Shown here: piece by piece, positions 47,701 to 55,354 of the stretch
Layout of the letters: every line of letters begins with the position of its first letter
How positions within the stretch are numbered: the stretch's first letter is position 1
DNA from: a bacterium CG_4_9_14_3_um_filter_65_15
Lineage (GTDB): Bacteria; Krumholzibacteriota; Krumholzibacteriia; LZORAL124-64-63
Assembly (NCBI GenBank): GCA_002790835.1
Contig: PFVX01000032.1
Location: 1-55,354, forward strand
Direction: 5' to 3'
DNA: 55,354 bases
The notes under the pieces: model-generated
Told to the model about the DNA's origin: nothing
The model's input: the letters and a program-made list of their open reading frames with translations, nothing else
The model's database searches: none
Program-made: the position numbers and the translations under genes

Positions 47701-48963
47701 TCATTTCGAGAACATGAACTTCGTTTCGGGATGTATCTGGTGCCATGTTTTCCACATGCCGCGGAATGATTCCACCGCGGGAAGCTCGACATCCTGAAGC
47801 TCTCCCGACACGCAGACCAGGAACTTGCTCAGGCCGCCGTCGAACTTCAGTCCTGGAAACCACAGGCTCCTGGTCTCGAGGTCCTGCAGGACGAAGATCT
47901 GTTGCCACGTCCACCCGCTGGCGGCAAAGGTCAGGACGCGTCCGGCGGGGCTTCCATCGTCGAGAAGGCGGCTGTACACGACAGCCGAATCACAAAGCGG
48001 TCAGTAGGTGGCGGCAAGATGCTGTTCGCCGACCAGGTCGTCCACCACCTCCCGCGAGTTGAGATTCCGGATCATGTAGGCGCGGGCATCGCCCTGGAAG
48101 TTCACGCCGATCACGTCGGCGATGCTGTTTTCGTCCGGGTAGCCGACAGATCCCGGCTCGAGCATCATGGGGTTGATGATCGGCTTGATGGCCCTGCGGC
48201 CGAGCCCGAATTGCCAGTACGCCTGGGCCATGTTGTGTTTGAGGACCGCATTGGTGATGTCGAAATCCTCGCCGGTGACGTCGGTGATGATGATGGGTTC
48301 GGGGACACGGGTTGTGGCCTGGGCCGTGACGGGGATTTCGGATCGATTGCCTGCGGTGTCCGCAGCCGTCGTGAAGAAACCGAAAGTACCTTGTTCGGCT
48401 GCGGTGAAAGTGACCGGGCCGGGGGGGAAGGCGCCTTGATGGCGCAACTCGCCCCCGTTCGCGGCATACCACAGGTCGATCTCTCCGACCCCGCTCAGAT
48501 CGTCTTCGGCACTCAACTCCAGGGTGAAGGTCAAGCTGGTCTGGTCCGCATCGAGGGAGGCGATGCAGGTGACCGGGGGCCGGGCGTCCTGCGTGGAGAC
48601 CCGGGTGTCGGACCAGAGGCCGGTGTTACCGGCAACGTCGACGACCCGGACGCGGTAGTAGTAGGTGGCACCGTGTTCCAGATTCGAAAACGTGTACCGG
48701 GTGCCGGTGATCCGGTCAGATTCCCCCGTGATGACGGAAAAATCCGGAGCGGTGGATTGCTGGACCTGATAGCCGTCCGAGCCTGCGTCGACCCATTCGA
48801 CCTCGTTGGTCGTCCCTGCGGTGAATTCGGGTTCCGCCATGATTTCCGGAGTGGCCAAGAGGGGCGGTTCGGTGGGTTTGCCGCCGGTATCCCCGCTCGA
48901 ACAGCCGTCGAGCATCGGGATGCCGGCCAGGGCGGCAAGACAGATCAAGGTCGGGAATTTCAT
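47701..48963 (-). CDS. DUF3179 lipoprotein, candidate selenoprotein (UGA at codon 321)
   Basis: The frame is open for 420 codons except one in-frame TGA at 48003-48001 (codon 321). Signal peptide with lipobox-like LDGC (Cys near 21). Residues about 35-125 are a fibronectin type III domain (YQVQQSTAPDFSV, YYYRVRVVDVAGN), 130-220 an Ig-like domain, and 230-420 DUF3179 (PIINPMM, IGVNFQGDARAYMIRNLNSREVVDDLVG). DUF3179 proteins have TxCPLC here; this one has ATY-TGA-PLCDSAVVYSR, then a normal family ending (VLTFAASGWTWQQIFVLQDLETRSLW). The TGA therefore replaces a conserved Cys of a CxxC motif, as in many selenoproteins, and a SECIS-like hairpin follows. A nonsense mutation is the alternative. AAGGAG precedes the ATG. 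Confidence 0.8.
47969..47987 (-). promoter_or_regulatory. Candidate bacterial SECIS element
   Basis: In the mRNA, 13 bases after the in-frame UGA, CGGCUGU pairs perfectly with ACAGCCG around the five-base loop CGUGU. Bacterial SECIS elements are short stem-loops right after the UGA with a G (often GU) among the first loop bases, and this fits. Confidence 0.6.
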
Positions 48964-53031: not shown

Positions 53032-54240
53032 TCAACGATTGCCCTTTGGGAGTATGCTGTAGTTCCAGTCGCCATGGAATTTGTCCGGCTTCAAGTTGAT
53101 CTCATTCATTTGTGCCGCCGTCGGCTTGACGGCCTTCGGGTACGTTCCGGTGTCCAGCACGCACCGTACCTTGAGTCCCGTCGCCGTTTGAGTGGCGGCG
53201 ATGTGGTTGACGATGGCCGCATGGGTGAGCAGCGGTTGGCCGCGCCAGTTCTGCGAGATGAACGAGAAGAGGCGGTGCTCTATCTTGTTCCATTTGCTCG
53301 TTCCCGGCGGAAGATGGCACACCATTATGGTCAGACCCGTCTGCTGGGCCAGCTTGTGGAGTTCCCATTTCCAGAGGCGGAGGCGGGAACCATTGCTGCC
53401 ACCACTGTCGGCAGTGATAAGAAGCGACTCGGCCCCCTGGTAATGCTTGCGCCCGAGCTCTCGCCACCAGCGACGGATCGTGGCCACCGCAAAGGCGGCG
53501 GTGTCATGGTCCACGCCCACACTCACCCAGCCTTGATTGCGACCAAGGTCGTACACGCCATACGGGATGGCCCGACCCTTGTCGCGCTCCAGGAAGTCAT
53601 GGACCTTCACGGGCTCTGGTTTACCTCGCGGCCGCCATGTTTGACCGGCATTCTTGAACCGCCCGACCAGCTCCTTCTTCTTGGTGTCCACCGAAATGAC
53701 CGGCTGCCCACGCTTCATCTGCCGCTTGACGACGGCGTTGATATGCTCGAACTGCGCATTCCGGTCGGGGTGGCTCGCGCCCTCCAACGTCTTCCGATTC
53801 GCCTGCAGGCTGTACTCCAAATCATGAAGCAAACCAGCGACCAGCGTATGGCTGACTTCGTACCCCTGCTCGTTCAGCTCCCCGGCCAAATGGCGCGTAC
53901 TCTTGCTCGTCCACCGCAACGGCGACTCAGGATCTCCGCGCGTTACGGGTTCGACAAGCTCCTCAAGCGCCGCCGCCAGTCCGGGCACCAAGAGGGTCAT
54001 TCGCTTTCGCCCCGCCCCAGGACGACGCACCCGATTAACGGACAACGGCTTCTTCTGCTCCAGTTCTTCCAGGCCACGAGCTATCGTATTGCGCGCAAGG
54101 CCAGTCGCTCGGGCGACGACCGCAATGCCGCCTCGCCCCAGTGCCCGCGCCTCGGTGCCGGCCCACAAACGACGGTGACGCTCGTCCATCGAGGGTAACA
54201 GAGCGCGGTACTTTGCGCGGATCTCCCTTTCGGCGTTCAT
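53032..54240 (-). CDS. ISAzo13 family transposase
   Basis: 402 residues, intact. The N-terminal helix-turn-helix has ATGLARNTIARGLEELEQ. Presumed DDE residues are in VISVDTKKKELVGRF, LLITADSGGSNGSRLRLWKWEL and SKWNKIEHRLFSFISQNW. The C-terminus has KFHGDWNYSI. It mobilises the surrounding element, whose ends are at 53005 and 54294. Confidence 0.95.
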   Translation of the reverse strand: MNAEREIRAKYRALLPSMDERHRRLWAGTEARALGRGGIAVVARATGLARNTIARGLEELEQKKPLSVNRVRRPGAGRKRMTLLVPGLAAALEELVEPVTRGDPESPLRWTSKSTRHLAGELNEQGYEVSHTLVAGLLHDLEYSLQANRKTLEGASHPDRNAQFEHINAVVKRQMKRGQPVISVDTKKKELVGRFKNAGQTWRPRGKPEPVKVHDFLERDKGRAIPYGVYDLGRNQGWVSVGVDHDTAAFAVATIRRWWRELGRKHYQGAESLLITADSGGSNGSRLRLWKWELHKLAQQTGLTIMVCHLPPGTSKWNKIEHRLFSFISQNWRGQPLLTHAAIVNHIAATQTATGLKVRCVLDTGTYPKAVKPTAAQMNEINLKPDKFHGDWNYSILPKGNR

Positions 54241-54396: not shown

Positions 54397-55259
54397 TCAG
54401 CCGGCCTCGGGTGCCGCGCTCCGCACACACCGCACGAAGTTGAGGATGCGGATCACATCGCCCTGCGGGCCGTGTCCGAGGGGCCAATCCGCGGGGTCGC
54501 CGTCCTTGGGGTCGCTGCGCTGGCAGCCTGCGCCGTGAACGTCCCAGCAGTTGAAGAGACCGGATCCGGGCGGCGCTTCCATCCAGCCGAAGCCGGTCCC
54601 GAAGGCCACATAGACGCCGCTGCTGCCGCCGGGTGATTGACGTGGCTGGTGCCGGTGTGATTGACGTGGCTGGTGCCGGTGTGATTGACGTGGCTGGTGC
54701 CGGTGCCGTCGCCGTTGTCCACGAAATCGTTCACCCCGTAGCCGTCTCCCGCGCGCACGAACAGGACGAAGAAGGTCTTGCCGCTTTTGCTCATGGGGTC
54801 GACGACGGGATAACCCTTGATGCGTCCATCGGCAAAATTCACGCCGAATACGGTTTCATCCCCGCCCATGGTCGTGCCCACGTACAACGTGCTGGTGAGA
54901 TACTGGGAGTCGATGATCCGCTCACCGCTAGCGGGATTCCCGTATCGGAAGGCGAAAACCGGGTCGATGAACGGCGTCAGCGTGAATGTGTCGTCCCCGA
55001 TCAGACCGCTGGGGTCTGTGCCGGTGAACTGGATCAAGGAGTACAGTTCCTTGATGGTGGGGATGCGCCAGTCCGAATATCCGGCCAGATCGAGAGTCGC
55101 CACGGCCGCCTGGGCCTGGCCGGTGTCGACGACTTCGAAGCTTCCGTTCCCTTCGACGGTTCCGGTATCGGGCCGAGTGCCGTTGCCGGAGCACCCCGAG
55201 CCAAAAGCGGTCACCAGGACGAGGGTCAGCAAGATGGAAATCGTGGGTTTGCCGGTCAT
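54397..55259 (-). pseudogene. DUF1566 lipoprotein gene, rearranged and frameshifted
   Basis: From ATG at 55259 a lipoprotein signal (LVLVTAFGSGCS) leads into DUF1566 sequence: VVDTGQ, then DLAGYSDWRIPTIKELYSLIQFTG, RIIDSQYLTSTLYVGTTMGG and VDNGDGT. Next come three copies of the 8-residue unit GTSHVNHT, then a one-base deletion. The rest of the family C-terminus (VYVAFGTGFGWM, HGAGCQRSDPKDGDP, HGPQGDVIRILNFVRCVR) continues in the next frame to 54397. As written the product reads out of frame to 54453. Segments between VDTGQ and DLAGYSDW, and after VDNGDGT, look deleted relative to family architecture. No good ribosome binding site is seen. Confidence 0.75.
54634..54705 (-). repeat. Three perfect 24-base tandem repeats in the DUF1566 gene
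   Basis: Units at 54634-54657, 54658-54681 and 54682-54705 are identical and encode TSHVNHTG on the minus strand. The base immediately before the first (plus) unit differs from the repeat pattern by a one-base loss, which causes the frameshift. Confidence 0.92.
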
Positions 55260-55354
55260 GGTATTAGGCTGTGTAAACAAATAAAGGTTGCATATAGACC
55301 CTAATGTTCGTATGCTGCAGTGCATGAGAACACCTTCCGAACTTCAAGCGAGGC

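Follow-up and report, generated by a model that had tools for sequence, protein, structure and literature searches.

The in-frame UGA at codon 321 of a DUF3179 lipoprotein gene is predicted by comparative genomics to encode selenocysteine (Sec), and we place the probability of this reading at about 94%. The gene is found on the minus strand (47701-48963) of the window, a 55,354-nucleotide stretch of DNA from a member of the Krumholzibacteriia, and its product would be an outward-facing lipoprotein. Sec is favoured because the genome carries the Sec machinery, the UGA is conserved throughout the family, the SECIS hairpin behind it covaries and the codons that follow it are under purifying selection.

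The minus-strand frame 48963-47701 consists of 421 codons, which are translated into 420 residues and a terminal TGA (47703-47701). With TGA read as Sec (U), the product begins with MKFPTLICLAALAGIPMLDGC and ends with KFMFSK. The only internal TGA is codon 321 (48003-48001), which is located in the context LAATY-U-PLCDSAVVYSR. Pfam places DUF3179 (PF11376) at residues 282-417 with an E-value of 1.5e-22 and a score of 80.8 bits, where the gathering score is 27 bits. The TGA lies inside the matched span and the domain runs on normally over the 99 codons 3' of it, so translation and Pfam both agree with the first-pass annotation, which had described the interrupted frame in these terms. Only positions 26-147 of the 292 profile positions are matched, which is short of a full-length domain, and close relatives stop at the same profile end; these proteins are referred to here as single-module members. 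No other DUF3179 gene was found when the source genome was searched.

The N-terminus reads as a signal peptide with a lipobox-like sequence (..IPMLDGC21), and the protein therefore probably faces outward, outside the cytoplasm. An fn3/Ig-like region (approximately residues 50-215) is followed by the single DUF3179 module (approximately residues 225-420). In the former region, an fn3 match at residues 55-119 (E=1.4e-4) fell slightly under the Pfam cut-off and an OmpL47-like match at residues 147-210 was also under the cut-off. The gene stands singly amid convergent and divergent neighbours, and no conserved gene neighbourhood that would indicate its function was found. The neighbours (an endonuclease with a FlgD-type tail, an aminotransferase, a PEGA/Omp28 protein and a beta-propeller protein) vary by lineage and do not form an operon with it. 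Elsewhere on the minus strand of the window, we noticed a lipoprotein-like frame at 54453-55325 in which HVNHTGTS is repeated in tandem, in frame, close to the C-terminus and, from reading only, a 402-aa frame resembling an insertion-sequence transposase at 53032-54240.

The source genome, assembled into 94 contigs totalling 3.39 Mb with a completeness of 95%, was searched for selA, selB, selC and selD, as the first-pass annotation had proposed, and all four are present. The tRNA-Sec has a UCA anticodon and scores 69.6 bits (C86:4654), SelB is a protein of 671 aa scoring 308 bits (contig C66), and selA and selD were detected at 446 bits (contig C84) and 361 bits (contig C8) respectively. The selD gene carries an in-frame UGA of its own near the N-terminus, in the motif FAKSAGU (L077 in G000:C8:30500-33500, minus strand, approximately 2024-1107), which is the place of the catalytic residue in Sec- or Cys-containing SelD proteins. 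The presence of this UGA indicates that the Sec system is in use. Across the class, selA was found in 78 of 80 genomes. The two genomes lacking it are G048, which has no DUF3179 gene, and G070, whose DUF3179 gene has no TGA. Among the UGA relatives that are more distant, selA was likewise found in each genome (4/4).

Our survey of 80 Krumholzibacteriia genomes gave 58 DUF3179 match rows which, after two second fragments were removed, correspond to 56 genes. An internal TGA was observed in 40 of these 56 and it falls on the same codon wherever class sequences were read. UGA at exactly this position was seen in 35 class loci and in the 14 single-module relatives (14/14). Both of the same-genus relatives that retain the gene (G058 and G059) also carry the UGA. 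The 14 relatives, whose loci came from a search with the module alignment since the full-protein query gave none, comprise 10 Krumholzibacteriota or related MAGs and four in or near the Calditrichota (three of them Calditrichota MAGs). We saw no Cys form among the single-module DUF3179 proteins, which answers in favour of UGA the question of UGA or Cys that had been raised for close homologues. The most conserved motif of the family, T/A-Y/W-U-P-L, is the one that holds Sec, which is replaced by Cys and, in rare cases, by Ser elsewhere in DUF3179; a divergent member (L061) reads FUGVC.

A few loci depart from this pattern. Serine is found at the Sec site (SPLS) of two proteins from genus g14 (L041 and L042), possibly reflecting a loss of Sec/Cys chemistry. 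The DUF3179 frames of G069-G072, which belong to this genus, are much longer (676-1137 aa), and G070 is the one among them without selA. The single-module gene L083 (G054:C30) contains an extra in-frame TAG 3' of the UGA (SLWFPGL-TAG-FPGG), which may represent a sequencing error, a pseudogene or another recoding.

The codons downstream of the UGA are under purifying selection, as judged from dN/dS comparisons with two same-genus relatives at 67-69% identity. Values of 0.14 and 0.15 were obtained for the 99 codons 3' of the UGA when the window gene was compared with each relative, and 0.19 when the two relatives were compared with each other. The corresponding values for the 80 codons on the 5' side were 0.55, 0.93 and 0.35, indicating weaker constraint. 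Protein-level selection is thus at least as strong after the stop as before it. A TGC-to-TGA nonsense mutation, which would mean that the gene is decaying or that its product is truncated at 320 residues, requires a change of just one base, as TGA differs from either TGC or TGT by a single nucleotide. However, such a mutation would not account for the recurrence of UGA at this codon across dozens of species from two or more lineages, for the selection on the downstream codons or for the covariation of the hairpin, and we consider it extremely improbable. The choice of Sec over a nonsense mutation, made earlier from the window by itself, is therefore upheld by the machinery, the conserved UGA, the covarying SECIS and the dN/dS of 0.14-0.19.

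The sequence CGGCTGT-CGTGT-ACAGCCG (47987-47969, minus strand) forms a hairpin with a 7-bp stem and a 5-nt CGUGU loop, which would represent the upper stem-loop of a bacterial SECIS (bSECIS). The stem begins 13 nt and the apical loop 20 nt from the TGA. This hairpin was noticed in the first reading of the window and it folds as described there, with a minimum free energy (MFE) of -12.2 kcal/mol for the TGA and 42 nt. The published constraints for bSECIS elements are a loop of 3-9 nt, a stem of 4-16 bp, a G within the first two positions of the loop, a UGA-loop spacing of 16-37 nt and an MFE of -7.5 or lower (PMC13188914), and the window hairpin agrees with all of them. No Rfam family was found at the site.

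Covariation was assessed in 34 distinct 42-nt windows starting with the UGA, where columns 17-23 pair with columns 29-35 to form the stem. In these 34 sequences, 94.5% of the stem pairs are kept as compared to 82.2% after shuffling and 23-53% in slid controls; the shuffle values are inflated by sequence kinship, whereas the slid controls retain this kinship and yet clearly fail. SECIS support thus extends to the UGA-bearing relatives. Both sides of the stem were observed to change in five of the seven pairs (GC/UA, GC/AU, CG/GC/UA, CG/UA and GC/AU). The covariation score is 0.375, with shuffled sequences scoring 0.158 +/- 0.017 and none of 500 shuffles reaching the observed value. The GU of the loop (G25 and T26) is invariant. 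The hairpin is not a chance feature, as both it and the UGA are kept across the whole class and further. Homologues with Cys (L024 and L025) or Ser (L041 and L042) share the domain and the motif position with the window protein but have a TGT or AGY codon in place of TGA, and the SECIS hairpin is absent from them: the stem pairs amount to 0/7 in the two Cys genes and 3/7 in the two Ser genes.

Readthrough, too, can be stimulated where a conserved hairpin lies 3' of a stop codon. As this arrangement is present here, the UGA might be a regulatory stop or be read through as Trp or another residue, with the hairpin acting as a readthrough stimulator and not as a SECIS. This explanation appears very unlikely, given that sense homologues have Cys or Ser at the site and not Trp, and that the spacing, loop and energy of the hairpin agree with the bSECIS model. 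The full Sec machinery, with its UGA-containing selD, and the lack of any UGA form in the class genomes without selA also argue against it.

Insertion of Sec at residue 321 would proceed as follows: SelA and SelD would make Sec-tRNA(Sec), which would be carried by SelB, and SelB would bind the hairpin 13 nt 3' of the UGA to direct the insertion. The chances are roughly even that the resulting selenol has a catalytic or metal-binding role in a redox reaction outside the cytoplasm.

Residues Tyr320, Sec321, Pro322, Leu323 and Cys384 were observed to be invariant in the 14 close single-module relatives. The residue at position 324 (the +3 position) is more variable, with Cys occurring in nine of the 14 and V or E in the others. 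Among divergent class members, the +3 residue is Q in L053 and L056 and A or T in long forms; Cys384 is displaced in L053 and absent from L056. The UPLC of the window protein, in which Cys324 (codon 47992-47994, minus strand) supplies the C, conforms to the published UxxC/T motif. Since V, E, Q or A takes the +3 position in other UGA relatives, this motif is not definitive of the whole family.

The first-pass annotation had assigned the protein to U-x-x-C redox chemistry outside the membrane. The extracytoplasmic location is in keeping with the signal peptide and lipobox-like N-terminus read from the sequence, whereas the +3 Cys that such chemistry would use is not conserved. A thioredoxin-like U-x-x-C pair would be compatible with the UPLC motif, which the window protein shares with about two thirds of its close relatives, but many functional-looking UGA relatives have V, E, Q, A or T at the +3 position, and the fold model is all-beta with few short helices, is not thioredoxin-like and has no such match in the PDB. 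We therefore regard this pair as rather unlikely, and the patterns at the +3 position and Cys384 indicate that the mechanism is not general. These alignments would be better explained by a mechanism based on a single selenol, which in many members would have a distal cysteine as its partner. In the single-module form, Sec321 may pair with the distal Cys384 (codon 47812-47814, minus strand), which may be its resolving partner, and the +3 residue would not be obligatory. One possibility, which we offer tentatively and with the odds still against it, is that an obligately Sec-dependent subfamily is made up of the lipid-anchored, single-module DUF3179 proteins found in Krumholzibacteriota and Calditrichota. 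In this subfamily, a selenol without a CxxC-type partner would be resolved by the distant Cys384 within a fold that has no solved counterpart.

The AlphaFold2 model of the module is confident (pLDDT 91.5, pTM 0.87) and mostly beta with few short helices. Foldseek gave no significant PDB match to this model (best E-value 0.25) and no solved relative of the window protein was found by sequence. The single match in a viral structure library was an uncharacterised Indivirus protein (E-value 7.2e-6, TM 0.5), which gives no functional clue. A Rieske/NirD fold was considered from weak Foldseek matches (E-value 0.25, rmsd 11.9). Such an assignment calls for profile or fold similarity together with C-x-H / C-x-x-H cluster ligands, and it was not supported: profile-profile comparison with the Rieske proteins of the class by hhalign gave a probability of 5%, and none of 30 members had a Pfam Rieske match.

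The DUF3179 domain-containing protein (pfam11376, UxxC/T) is a listed prokaryotic selenoprotein family in two reviews (PMC9312934 and PMC13188914), both of which take it from the work of Zhang and Gladyshev in 2007 on an Olavius algarvensis symbiont. The earlier remark that DUF3179 was not a recognised selenoprotein family was thus mistaken. The window gene resembles the listed family in its Pfam domain and in the UGA of UxxC/T that replaces the Cys of Cys homologues. As compared through the listing in the reviews, it differs in that its single module is preceded by a lipoprotein signal and fn3/Ig-like domains, and in its occurrence in Krumholzibacteriia; the +3 residue is also more variable among the present UGA relatives than the listed motif implies. 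The two-module Sec-DUF3179 proteins of the class (approximately 290 aa) share the UGA site and the SECIS type with the window gene but have a C-terminal second half that is missing from its product. The halves of these long forms (L026 to L035 and others) resemble a tandem repeat, with the second half lacking the Sec/Cys motif. In a single hhalign comparison the two halves matched at a probability of 80% (E-value 1.4e-5), which suggests that the second repeats the first in degenerate form, and the window gene may therefore be the single-unit form.

The window gene is a well-supported addition to a known selenoprotein family and not a new family. What it adds is modest, namely a lipoprotein form with a single module and the variability of the +3 residue. 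The covariation evidence confirms DUF3179 as a true selenoprotein family, which is a frequent part of the selenoproteome in Krumholzibacteriia and in some Calditrichota. Standard gene calling would end the gene at the UGA in these genomes. The frequent preference of a small extracytoplasmic domain for Sec instead of Cys singles out residue 321 as the predicted catalytic site, and as the entry point for working out the function of DUF3179.
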